DNA from: Candidatus Gastranaerophilales bacterium
GTDB lineage: Bacteria > Cyanobacteriota > Vampirovibrionia > Gastranaerophilales > Gastranaerophilaceae
NCBI GenBank assembly: GCA_944324225.1
Contig: CALUVL010000004.1
Coordinates: 62,001-126,000, forward strand
DNA: 64,000 nt
Direction of reading: 5' to 3'
Part shown: positions 22,241 to 62,338 of the stretch, in pieces
Layout: each line of letters begins with the position of its first letter
Position numbering within the stretch: the stretch's first letter is position 1
Translations under genes and position numbers: made by a program
The notes under the pieces: model-generated
Seen by the model: only the letters and a program-made list of their open reading frames with translations
Databases searched by the model: none
Told to the model about the DNA's origin: nothing

Positions 22241-22307
22241 ATGGCGTTATTATTGAGTTTTAGGGGGGGGGGGGCACCCGGAAACTAGCCTTCTGAGAGG
22301 ATTTACG
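22241..22307 (+). other. Prepilin leader with poly-G(12) contingency tract (22263-22274)
   Basis: An ATG at 22241 has AAGGAG 9 bases upstream. The frame meets 12 consecutive G and stops at TAG 22286, before the prepilin core. Removing one G gives an open leader, MALLLSFRGGGHPETSLLRG, fused directly to FTMAEVLIT with a correct Gly/Phe prepilin cleavage site. As assembled, the downstream frame has no good start with the cleavage motif, so the gene is 'off' or needs slippage. Confidence 0.8.
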
Positions 22308-24376: not shown

Positions 24377-24431
24377 ATGCTAAAATATAGAAATAGTGTT
24401 GATTTGCGGGGGGGGGGGGCACCCGAATTTA
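24377..24431 (+). other. Prepilin leader with poly-G(12) contingency tract (24408-24419)
   Basis: An ATG at 24377 follows AAGGGAGAG. Its frame reads MLKYRNSVDLRG, enters 12 G and stops at a TAA near 24429. With one G fewer the frame continues through RGGGHPNLSSPRGF into the prepilin core. The words before and after the tract (RGGGHP, CACCCG) are shared with the tract at 22263. Confidence 0.8.
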
Positions 24432-43706: not shown

Positions 43707-44966
43707 ATGGGATTTGACTACACAGTGAGCGGAAAAGACAAAGGCCTGACGTATATATTTTTGGAACAGGCAAAAAAGCATGCAGGCTTTGACTCAAACC
43801 AGAAGATAGACTGGAATAAAGTCATGTCAGTATTTGATGAAATTCAGAAAGAAGAGCAGGCCGAAGGTCAGAAACTATTCAGCGGCGGAACGGATAAAAC
43901 GCGCGCCGGCTGGGGCAAGAGTTATGTAATAAAAGCCGGCGATAAAATAAGTTTGTCAGACGAGCAGATGAACAAAATCTATGGCGCAATGGGTCTGGAT
44001 TTGTCAAAAGCGCAGCAGCCCAATCCGACGAAGCAGGTGCAGCAAACACCGCCGGCACAGAACACACCGCCGGCACAGAACACACCGCCGGCACAGAACA
44101 CACCACCGGCACAGAACACACCACCGGCACAGAACACGCCGCCTGCACAGAACACACCACCGGCACAGAACACACCACCGGCACAGAACACACCACCTGC
44201 GCAGAACACACCACCGGCACAGCAAACCCCGCCGGCTCAACAAACTCCACCGGCGAAAGATCCAAACCCGCCAAAGGCAATAACACCTGCCAAAGGAGAA
44301 GATTTGTCTAATAACAAGTCCCCGCTGGACATGCAAATGTATATAAAACGAGAAAAATATGCAAACCAGACAGTTCCAAATCCTGATGGCACAATGTACT
44401 CATACGATGAAAATGGTTATGTAGAAGAAGTATTAGACAAAGACGGCAACAAGACACAAGAGATTAACCGCAGATCAGACGGCAGTGTTGATGAATATTA
44501 TGACTACACATACGATAAAGCCGGCAACAAGACACAAGTGATTACTCGCAATTCAGACGGCAGTGTTAGTTACTATTATGACTACACATACGACAAAGAC
44601 GGCAACATAACACAAGCGATTTGGCGCAACCCAGACGGCAGTGTTAGTTACTATTATGACTACACATACGACAAAGACGGCAACATGACACAAGAGATTA
44701 TACGCGAACCTGACGGCAGTGTTAGTTACTATTATGACTACACATACGATAAAGCCGGTAACAAGACACAAGAGATTTGGCGCAATTCAGACGGCAGTGT
44801 TTATTATTATTATGACTACACATACGATAAAGCCGGCAACAAGACACAACTGATTAATCGCAACTCAGATGGCAGTGTTGATTACTATGAAGTCTATGAA
44901 TATGACCAAGATGGTAACCAGATTAGTCAAATCACATACGACAAAGACGGTAATGTAAAGGAATAA
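43707..44966 (+). CDS. Repeat protein: PAQNTPP linker plus YD-type repeats
   Basis: A 419-residue protein. Residues 1-105 are a small helical domain (MGFDYTVSGKDKGLTYIFLE, ending SYVIKAGDKISLSDEQMNKI). Residues about 113-184 are 12 near-identical hexapeptides of type TPPAQN. Residues about 258-412 are six 26-residue units of type DGSVSYYYDYTYDKDGNxTQ, reminiscent of YD (RHS) repeats, ending YDKDGNVKE. No signal peptide. Likely secreted or cell-surface, with the Pro-rich part as a spacer (inference). AAAAGGAGTATAAAA precedes the ATG. Several long shadow frames on both strands come from the repeats. Confidence 0.75.
   Translation: MGFDYTVSGKDKGLTYIFLEQAKKHAGFDSNQKIDWNKVMSVFDEIQKEEQAEGQKLFSGGTDKTRAGWGKSYVIKAGDKISLSDEQMNKIYGAMGLDLSKAQQPNPTKQVQQTPPAQNTPPAQNTPPAQNTPPAQNTPPAQNTPPAQNTPPAQNTPPAQNTPPAQNTPPAQQTPPAQQTPPAKDPNPPKAITPAKGEDLSNNKSPLDMQMYIKREKYANQTVPNPDGTMYSYDENGYVEEVLDKDGNKTQEINRRSDGSVDEYYDYTYDKAGNKTQVITRNSDGSVSYYYDYTYDKDGNITQAIWRNPDGSVSYYYDYTYDKDGNMTQEIIREPDGSVSYYYDYTYDKAGNKTQEIWRNSDGSVYYYYDYTYDKAGNKTQLINRNSDGSVDYYEVYEYDQDGNQISQITYDKDGNVKE
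44043..44258 (+). repeat. 12 x 18-nt tandem repeat
   Basis: Twelve 18-base units of the form AACACACCACCGGCACAG, coding TPPAQN. Units 1-10 are nearly identical at DNA level and units 11-12 are diverged. Copy number could vary between strains. Confidence 0.9.
44478..44945 (+). repeat. 6 x 78-nt tandem repeat
   Basis: Units begin with GACGGCAGTGTT at 44478, 44556, 44634, 44712, 44790 and 44868, each 78 bases (26 codons). The DNA is very similar between copies, suggesting recent duplication or gene conversion. The last copy diverges. Confidence 0.9.
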
Positions 44967-47417: not shown

Positions 47418-48893
47418 TTATGATTGCAAGGGCTGCTTCATTGCAGCTCTAATTCTATGGAATGTTTTATTTTTACCGATAATAGCAAGAATTGCAGTCA
47501 TATCAGCTCCACAGAGTCTTCCGGTTACTGCCGCTCTGATTGCCCACATTGTTACTTTAGGTTTAATACCTTTTTCTTTGTAATATGCTCTGAAGGCTTC
47601 TAGTTTTTCGTGAAGATTTTCTTCAGTCCAATCCCAGTCAGGCGCCTGTTCCATAAAGGTTTTGAGAACATCCTGCGCTGTTTCTGTATCTAGTGTTTCT
47701 TGAGCTCTGTCATCAATTTCAACATCTTGCCCGAAGAAATACGGAACAGCGTCGGTAATATCGGAAAGTAATGTCAAAGGTTCATATGTAATCTCAACCA
47801 TTCTGGTGTACTGGGCATCCGTAAGTTCAGTGAGATCATATTTTGTCAGATACGGTTTTAATCTTTCTTTCAATTCCGGAATTGAAAGCATCTTGATATA
47901 ATGGCTGTTCATCCAGTTAAGTTTGTCATATTCAAATATTGAATTTGAAGAAGAAACTTCATTGATTCTGAAGTCTTTAGCAATCTCATCAACTGATTTT
48001 ATTTCCTGGCCGTCTGAAGGTGACCAGCCGAGAAGAGCTACAAAGTTAATAAGAGCATCTGTGAGGTAACCTTTTTCAACGAATTCAGAAACAGCGGTTG
48101 CGCCGTGTCTTTTTGAAAGCTTGCTTCTGTCCGGTGCAAGAATCATTCCGAGGTGTCCGAATTTCGGAACTTCAGCGCCGAGGGCTTCAAAGATAAGAAT
48201 TTGTTTGAATGTATTTGAAATATGGTCTTCTCCTCTGATAACATGCGAAATTTTCATAAGCATATCGTCGATTACAACCGCAAAGTTGTAAGTCGGGGCG
48301 CCGTTGGATTTCATTATAACAAAATCTCCGAGAAGATCTGTATCAACGTGAAGTTTTCCTTTTACAAGGTCGTCAAATTCAAGAATTGAAGAATCGTGAA
48401 AAGCTTTCTGGGCTTTTGAAATGTTAAATCTGATTGCGGGTTTTCTGCCTTCTGCGCGTAGTTTGGCTTTCTCTTCCTCTGTCAGATTCAAGCATTTTTT
48501 TGTATAAACATAAGGTTTTTTATTTTCTGCAGCTTCTTTTTTCTCGGCTTCAAGTTCTTCCGGAGTACAGAAGCATTCGTATGCAAAGCCTTTGTCAATC
48601 AGTTCCTGTACGTATTTCGGGTAAATATCAAATCTTTCGGATTGTGTGTAAGGGCCGTAAGGACCGCCGACATCCGGGCCCTCATCCCAATTTAGCCCGA
48701 GAGCCTTAAGACTGTCAAAAATATTTTTAATATATTCCTGACTTGTGCGCTCTGCGTCAGTGTCTTCTATTCTTAAAACAAATTTACCGTTATTTTTCTT
48801 GGCAAAAAGATAATTAAACAGCGCTGTTCTGGCTGTTCCGATGTGCAAATTCCCGCTTGGGGAGGGTGCAATTCTCACTCTGACTTCTGACAT
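47418..48893 (-). CDS. gltX: Glutamyl-tRNA synthetase
   Basis: Charges tRNA-Glu (and possibly tRNA-Gln for later amidation). A 491-residue class I synthetase with the HIGH-type motif PSGNLHIGTARTALFNYL near the N-terminus and KMSKS-type KLSKRHGA near residue 260. APTYNFAVVIDDMLMKISHV (ATP and acceptor site) and GDFVIMKSNGAP are typical. AAAGAAGGATT precedes the ATG. It has no obvious GatCAB neighbours here. Length and motif order are normal. Confidence 0.96.
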   Translation of the reverse strand: MSEVRVRIAPSPSGNLHIGTARTALFNYLFAKKNNGKFVLRIEDTDAERTSQEYIKNIFDSLKALGLNWDEGPDVGGPYGPYTQSERFDIYPKYVQELIDKGFAYECFCTPEELEAEKKEAAENKKPYVYTKKCLNLTEEEKAKLRAEGRKPAIRFNISKAQKAFHDSSILEFDDLVKGKLHVDTDLLGDFVIMKSNGAPTYNFAVVIDDMLMKISHVIRGEDHISNTFKQILIFEALGAEVPKFGHLGMILAPDRSKLSKRHGATAVSEFVEKGYLTDALINFVALLGWSPSDGQEIKSVDEIAKDFRINEVSSSNSIFEYDKLNWMNSHYIKMLSIPELKERLKPYLTKYDLTELTDAQYTRMVEITYEPLTLLSDITDAVPYFFGQDVEIDDRAQETLDTETAQDVLKTFMEQAPDWDWTEENLHEKLEAFRAYYKEKGIKPKVTMWAIRAAVTGRLCGADMTAILAIIGKNKTFHRIRAAMKQPLQS

Positions 48894-48964: not shown

Positions 48965-49687
48965 TTACTGGAGAATGTACAATGGAGAGCACCCCCAGCC
49001 GGAGCCGTGTTTGCAGTCGTCTATGTAGTTTTCTTCCGTAATTTCTTTGCAATGATTCGGGCAGTCATAATCATTTACTGTTATTTTTCCGTTTTTTTCA
49101 AAGAATGACGGAACGGGAGAGTTTTCAGGAATTATTAAATAGAAGATATCTCTGCCGACAGTATTTGGATTTTTCTTCCCATTTACATCTATAAAGATTT
49201 GCTCCATACTATTGAAGTTTATCATAGCACCATCTGGCAGATAAAAAGTGTATCTCATAAAAGCTCCGTTGATAGACATAGGTTTGCCAGTTTTGTCAAT
49301 CCATTCATTCTCTTTGTGCCATTGAAAATTTTCGTTGACCAATTCACTTGCTGCAAAATCAAGGTCAGAGAGATCAGATGTGGTAAGTATTTTATTGCAA
49401 TTTAAACCTGAATATTGTGTTTTAAGCTGTATTCCTATCTGGCAAACATATCTGGAAAATTCTTTGTGATCTACTGTTTCATAGCCGAGGTTTTCATCAA
49501 ATTTGAATGGCTTGTTGTAGAACGCTTCATCCTGGGCATAAATCATCTGCATTGCCTGCGAAATAATCGAAACCTGCTTTTTGAACATAGCTCTGAATTG
49601 TCTGTCCTGTGCGTTATTTATTACTGTTGGCAGCGTCATGGCTGCAACAATGCCGATTATGCCAAGTGTAATTAAAACTTCGGCCAT
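48965..49687 (-). CDS. Type IV pilin-like prepilin, frame-shifted from its leader by poly-G
   Basis: The frame from ATG 49687 gives 240 residues starting MAEVLITLGIIGIVAAMTLP, lacking the cleavage site. Upstream in frame are codons for KPKAFT, i.e. the normal prepilin junction (Ala/Phe). The well-placed ATG (49787; AAGGAG) is one base out of phase across a G12 tract (minus strand). The globular part has IFIDVNGKKNPNTVGRDIFY, the shared DNG-K-PN-G-D-F motif, and a Cys-rich end (DYDCPNHCKEITEENYIDDC). Divergent from the secreted protein at 49930. Off, or rescued by slippage. Confidence 0.85.
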   Translation of the reverse strand: MAEVLITLGIIGIVAAMTLPTVINNAQDRQFRAMFKKQVSIISQAMQMIYAQDEAFYNKPFKFDENLGYETVDHKEFSRYVCQIGIQLKTQYSGLNCNKILTTSDLSDLDFAASELVNENFQWHKENEWIDKTGKPMSINGAFMRYTFYLPDGAMINFNSMEQIFIDVNGKKNPNTVGRDIFYLIIPENSPVPSFFEKNGKITVNDYDCPNHCKEITEENYIDDCKHGSGWGCSPLYILQ

Positions 49688-49787
49688 TGTGAAAGCTTTC
49701 GGCTTATTTAATAATAATTCAATTATGGAGCTTTTGTTGCCCCCCCCCCCCTGTCTGGAATTTACTTATAGTGTGCTTTTTGAACAT
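49688..49787 (-). other. Prepilin leader with poly-G(12) contingency tract (C12 at 49740-49751)
   Basis: ATG at 49787 preceded by AAAGGAGC. The frame reads MFKKHTISKFQT, then 12 G, then QQKLHN and a TGA at 49721. One G fewer gives GGGGNKSSIIELLLNKPKA and then FTMAEVLIT, an open leader with a correct junction. The flanking words differ from the other two tracts. Confidence 0.8.
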
Positions 49788-49894
49788 TTTAAGCTCCTTT
49801 TAAATCTCTCTTAATCCTAACACTGTTTATTATAGCATAAAATTTTAAAATAAGGATATATTACCTGTTACTCAAATATTATCTTGAAAATCGT

Positions 49895-61990: not shown

Positions 61991-62338
61991 ATGGAATACA
62001 ATGCAGGCTGGATGCCAAAGTATGATTTAGAAGCCCGCATTCAGCATACAAAACTTGACAACGGACTTTATGGAATGCCGCCGGCAAGGCTTGAGAGAAT
62101 GGAATCTCCATCAACAGGAGACTTTAAAGCTGTATTTTCTGGGCTTGTAGAAAATCTGAATGCTGAACTGAATGCACCTGACAACCTTTTGAAAGATGTA
62201 ATGAGCGGGAATAACAACATTGATATTCATGATGTAATGACAGCAATGGCAAAATCCGAAATCAGTGTAAACGTAGCAACGCAAATTACAGGGAAAGTCA
62301 TTCAGGCTTATGACAAAGTTATGCAAATTCAGGTATAA
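61991..62338 (+). CDS. fliE: Flagellar hook-basal body protein FliE
   Basis: A 115-residue protein. The C-terminal half, NIDIHDVMTAMAKSEISVNV, then ATQITGKVIQAYDKVMQIQV, is the FliE signature ('H.vmia..kA..sf.l...vrnKlv.AY.eimrm.v'). It links MS-ring and rod. The N-terminal half is variable. AAAGGCAGGG precedes the ATG. It is followed by fliF. flgB/flgC, often upstream, are not in this window. Confidence 0.88.
   Translation: MEYNAGWMPKYDLEARIQHTKLDNGLYGMPPARLERMESPSTGDFKAVFSGLVENLNAELNAPDNLLKDVMSGNNNIDIHDVMTAMAKSEISVNVATQITGKVIQAYDKVMQIQV

Follow-up and report, generated by a model that had tools for sequence, protein, structure and literature searches.

We found that, in Candidatus Gastranaerophilales, uncultured non-photosynthetic gut relatives of cyanobacteria, dozens of pilin genes carry a run of 10-13 identical G bases near their start, and that almost every run is exactly one base away from the length that would let the gene be read. 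Most of the pilin set thus seems to be held off by default, ready to be switched on by a one-base slip. The gene from which we began lies in a 64,000-nucleotide stretch (the window; positions 62,001 to 126,000 of contig CALUVL010000004.1, assembly GCA_944324225.1), which is part of a 1.93 Mb, 28-contig, 99% complete genome. The gltX gene next door is 97-98% identical to that of MAGs named Candidatus Gastranaerophilales.

The first-pass annotation described a minus-strand prepilin gene preceded by 12 G, one base out of frame, and the sequence confirms this observation. In the ATG frame, the run is followed by CAA CAA AAG CTC CAT AAT TGA, such that the seventh codon after the run is a stop. To ask which lengths would open the frame, we changed the tract length in silico. 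Only 8, 11 or 14 G opened a reading frame of 272-274 aa, which runs through GGG(G)NKSSIIELLLNKPKA|FTMAEVLIT to the end of the pilin, whereas 9, 10, 12, 13 and 15 G led to a stop after 20-23 codons. The runs exceed chance: the window contains 12 overlapping G9 matches (three runs of 12) against a shuffle mean of 0.07 per 64 kb window, and the two other tracts of the window are also 12 G and also one G too long. The features of the window are collected in the following table.

Features of the 64,000-nucleotide window, in window coordinates
Position	Strand	Feature	Basis
49794..49799	-	Shine-Dalgarno AAGGAG; GGAGCTT (49791-49797) can pair with AAGCTCC at 49727-49733	sequence; predicted minimum-energy pairing
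49785..49787	-	ATG start codon	sequence
49752..49787	-	pre-tract leader, ATG TTC AAA AAG CAC ACT ATA AGT AAA TTC CAG ACA	sequence; homologous to leaders of other tract pilins
49740..49751	-	poly-G tract of 12; in-frame lengths 8, 11, 14	sequence; in silico length changes
49727..49733	-	AAGCTCC, anti-SD-like element after the tract	recurrent in paralogues in different reading frames
49719..49721	-	stop TGA in the frame read with 12 G	sequence; in silico length changes
49694..49738	-	post-tract prepilin leader NKSSIIELLLNKPKA in the in-frame (ON) reading	4 of 6 differences from the G007 ortholog are synonymous in this frame
48968..49693	-	mature pilin-like protein FTMAEVLITLGIIG..., 242 aa	PF07963 and TIGR02532 above cut-off; orthologs 51-56% identical
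48965..48967	-	stop of the in-frame reading	sequence
47418..48893	-	gltX, downstream neighbour	used to find the same locus in other species
22263..22274	+	second tract pilin: G12, ATG 22241, mature start 22302	one G too long
24408..24419	+	third tract pilin: G12, ATG 24377, mature start 24477	one G too long
43707..44966		ORF of 419 aa, PPAQNT-type repeats followed by YDYTYDKAGN-type repeats

The protein encoded downstream of the tract passes the curated cut-offs for the prepilin cleavage/methylation motif of both PF07963 (22.9 vs 21.2 bits) and TIGR02532 (21.6 vs 16.3 bits). The rest of the protein belongs to a family of about 230 aa; a structure model showed a long N-terminal helix followed by mixed strands at a pLDDT of 69.5, and a comparison with the PDB returned no meaningful match. 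The same genome encodes a prepilin peptidase (PF01478, one hit above cut-off) and secretion (assembly) ATPases (PF00437, four hits above cut-off). From the FTMAEV cleavage motif we infer that the tract lies in the leader that prepilin peptidase should remove, and so peptides spanning the junction would be hard to obtain.

To determine whether this gene is a singleton, we counted homopolymer runs in related genomes. The genome itself contains 19 runs of at least 10 G (14 of 12 G, 3 of 13 and 2 of 10), and thirteen of fourteen genomes of the genus (here g1) contain runs of 11 or more. Of 288 genomes of the family, 217, in 37 of 41 genera, have at least one run of 10 G, with up to 176 in one genome (G210, of genus g7) and 87 in another (G034, of genus g22). 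In the sampled loci, G/C runs of 7-9 are nearly absent while runs of 10-13 are common and A/T runs fall off smoothly, indicating that the long G/C runs are a separate class; because the loci were chosen for having long runs, only the gap below them is informative. In genome G000, contigs C1 (end), C8 (end) and C14 (start) break 19 bases after, or 46 bases before, an identical G12 leader (loci L010, L014 and L016), so shared leaders probably collapse the assembly.

We next asked in which frame these tracts stand. For each run, we took the best Shine-Dalgarno start upstream and the longest ORF downstream, and scored the offset from the in-frame length. In g1 (13 genomes with tracts), 90 of 115 tract pilins are one G too long, 15 are in frame and 10 are off the other way. 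Because paralogues share ancestry, these counts are not fully independent; merging leaders at 80% identity, which reduces but does not remove this dependence, left 92 clusters (all ORF classes), of which 70 are +1 and 11 in frame (binomial p 6e-17 and 4e-6 against 1/3). The +1 state is kept whichever length is the in-frame one: an in-frame length of 11 is found with 12 G 63 times, 12 with 13 G 15 times, and 10 with 11 G 11 times. In G034, the run is mostly 10 and one base short in 31 of 37 pilins, counting C-runs, with 5 of 37 in frame. In G210, all 40 runs of the first set are exactly 10 and all 27 scored pilins (20 G-sense, 7 C-sense) are one short, as are all 36 pilins with enough downstream sequence in an enlarged set. 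In genus g11, for which the sample is small, the run is mostly 11 and one too many. Thus, the direction of the offset differs between genera, but being exactly one base off does not. In-frame and out-of-frame alleles both exist in g1 and G034, across loci rather than within one population.

We found that a stop follows the run within four codons in the frame actually read in 84 of 90 cases in g1, 25 of 25 in G210 (G-sense) and 27 of 28 in G034, whereas in the other wrong frame this holds for only 8 of 90, 4 of 25 and 0 of 28, and for 23% of random positions. Of the 16 g1 tracts scored as in frame in this analysis, 15 still carry the early stop in the +1 frame, as expected of ON copies switched away from a +1 default. 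The gene from which we began is less typical, in that its stop lies 6 codons on and that of its ortholog 1 codon on, so the short peptide itself is not conserved.

To examine homologues, we searched for related loci; a search with the pilin itself returned nothing, and we therefore used gltX. Beside gltX, locus L202 of genome G007, from another species, has the ortholog with the same leader and the same G12. Locus L201 has no pilin; most other species carry a tract-less pilin with an MKK-like start directly before the cleavage site (L206, L259, L266, L215, L212 and others), while L210, L221 and L222 carry a G10 leader of another type. The tract leader is thus an optional extension that, we infer, would be cleaved off on maturation. 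At G010 loci L046, L105, L175, L179 and L180, the tract leader lies in front of a pilin that keeps an ordinary downstream start (MKKA|FTMAEV); L081 reads SIKKA there, so that start appears lost. Homologues lacking any tract but retaining the same short ORF had been named in advance as a finding that would count against a switch; the tract-less homologues examined have the plain MKK-type start, not the short ORF.

The interpretation offered by the first-pass annotation was only partly supported. A poly-G frame switch in front of a prepilin is supported; its further proposal, that differing flanks point to independent acquisition of the same switch, is not. The pre-tract leader matches leaders of other pilins in other species (20 of 24 bases with locus L196; best of 20 shuffled scans, 18), the post-tract flank has the same CAAC...AGCTCC element as many paralogues, and the syntenic ortholog in G007 shares leader and tract length. 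The three tracts of the window are therefore better read as copies of one cassette than as independent inventions. The AGCTCC element recurs about 14 bases after the run in several genera, in different reading frames, and could pair with the Shine-Dalgarno. The predicted pairing is longer than in letter-shuffled sequences (5.8 vs 3.1 bases in g1), but swapping partners within a genus or between genera barely lowers it, and folding z-scores are weak (-1.4 for the gene studied here); we retain it only as an observation and not as evidence of a regulatory stem.

To ask whether the run matters in DNA or in RNA, we examined its strand. In G210, which carries its approximately 176 G10 runs on one strand along long stretches of contigs C1-C3 (loci L416-L447), the G-rich strand switches only once among 83 neighbouring runs (3 of 67 in G034), whatever the gene direction, and pilins in the reverse direction carry C10 instead of G10 with the same frame offset. 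This is expected if the run matters in replication, but not if it matters in the transcript, although that the constant strand is a replication strand is itself an inference. The strand rule is not seen in g1 (8 switches in 22 in genome G003), where nearly all tract pilins are G-sense. Copies with near-identical flanks differ in length in 18 of 102 pairs (for example, G10 and G12 in tandem copies in L375), indicating that lengths do change; however, the other 84 pairs have equal length and G210 shows hardly any variation, which is tight for a fast switch.

The feature is real, widespread and apparently selected as a frame device. Together, these results lead us to favor, with moderate confidence, the hypothesis that the gene is one member of a large family of slipped-strand contingency loci tuned to a default-OFF length. 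In this view, a ribosome-binding site, an ATG and a short leader precede a pure G (or C) run, beyond which lie the rest of a cleavable prepilin leader and an intact pilin; tract length sits at a value typical of the lineage (12 in g1, 10 in g7 and g22, 11 in g11), and the flanks are set so that this length is out of frame by exactly one base and ends at a stop a few codons on. Replication slippage by one base would put a gene in frame in a minority of cells, prepilin peptidase would then remove the leader, including the glycines, and each cell would express a small, changing subset of its pilins. Our analysis shows the anatomy, the frame states, the lineage-specific lengths, the early stops and the tract-free homologues at the same locus; that the slip happens at the DNA level, that expression follows tract length, that ON cells are a minority and that this diversifies the cell surface are inferred from sequence alone. 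The assembled length is, moreover, a consensus, and in Bifidobacterium breve a tract annotated as G11 proved to be about 60% G12 and 37% G11 in cultures (PMC9187656). If correct, this would be among the largest sets of homopolymer switches in any bacterium, in a gut lineage for which our literature search returned no account of phase variation. The default-OFF frame with its early stop, tuned differently in each genus, and the strand-fixed runs in one genus give direct tests of how run length, replication strand and reading frame co-evolve, and of whether bacteria can hold a large surface repertoire with only a few members on.

The main rival, less likely but still live, is programmed recoding, in which RNA polymerase (or the ribosome) slips on the run in a fixed fraction of events, so that every cell makes some pilin from an out-of-frame gene without any change in DNA. 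The near-universal out-of-frame state, the almost uniform run length in G210 and the intact ORFs behind the run are consistent with this possibility, and a slippery run with a prompt stop in the frame read and an ORF in another frame is what a recoding site looks like. However, the direction of shift is not conserved (one base fewer is needed in g1 and g11, one more in g7 and g22), G and C runs are used interchangeably with G on a fixed DNA strand, and in-frame copies and length differences exist. In addition, a seven-base slippery site would suffice, yet runs of 10-13 are kept pure; we found a single truly interrupted tract, too few to inform on slip dependence. In its boldest form, which we consider unlikely but cannot exclude, many pilin genes would be permanently out of frame at a lineage-fixed run length and expressed only through transcriptional slippage, as a genome-wide device and possibly the largest such recoded gene family.

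We consider the remaining explanations very unlikely. Sequencing or assembly error is conceivable, as homopolymers are error-prone and Illumina reads can fail through G-tracts (PMC9187656), but the offset follows genus across MAGs of different projects, is + in some genera and - in others, and is tracked by the early stops, and runs of 10 inside ordinary long genes are in frame in G210 (4 of 5) and G034 (3 of 3), so 10 is not generally a miscount. Ordinary random phase variation without a default state, although poly-G phase variation is common in surface genes of other bacteria (e.g. PMC6321876, PMC4965091), predicts an in-frame share of about one third, well above the shares found in g1, G034 and G210 (0 of 27), and does not predict the strong preference for one wrong frame. 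Genes other than pilins also carry such runs in mixed frame states: at L013 (G000:C8:21300-33300, minus strand), three neighbouring DNA methyltransferase-like ORFs (..LLVADFFSGSGTT) have G9, G10 and G12 at the same place and a C5-methylase-like ORF nearby has G10, suggesting possible phase-variable methylation, although the mixed frames mean that this cluster says little as a control; and acyltransferase-like ORFs (NVDFLRF...) at L117 (G002), L133 (G009) and L116 (G012) carry G10-G14 near the start. Finally, decay of permanently silenced copies, for which the out-of-frame state in most genomes and one copy without a long ORF after the tract (L015 in G000) might speak, is the weakest reading, as pilin ORFs of about 200-300 aa stay open, the tract is kept pure, and, across paralogues, post-tract leaders favor third-position changes in the ON frame, clearly in G210 (46 vs 27 and 20) and mildly in g1 (387 vs 254 and 307).

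The nearest described counterpart is the G-tract switch of sortase-dependent pili in the gut bacterium B. breve UCC2003 (PMC9187656), in which a G-tract of about 11-12 inside the first pilin gene is out of frame in the sequenced strain, strains built in frame with 10 or 9 G make pilus-like structures, slippage at the DNA level was measured and the productive length was enriched in mice. That strain has two clusters of sortase pili, whereas here the genes encode type IV-like prepilins, tens per genome, with the tract in a cleavable leader and a uniform, lineage-specific default length. The poly-G/poly-C phase-variable genes of Campylobacter (29 loci with tracts of 7 or more in NCTC11168, PMC4965091; PhasomeIt, PMC6321876) and of Neisseria likewise have a homopolymer within the coding region, one-base slips that change frame and many loci per genome. 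Those loci show a mix of ON and OFF states and diverse gene types; here, one gene family dominates and about 87-100% are out of frame, with a preferred wrong frame and an early stop. Transcriptional slippage cassettes in bacteria (e.g. IS elements, PMC1088944) share a homopolymer run with a downstream ORF in another frame, but the cited survey concerns A/T runs in IS genes, while here the runs are G/C, the shift direction is not conserved between genera, and one genus shows strand polarity at the DNA level.
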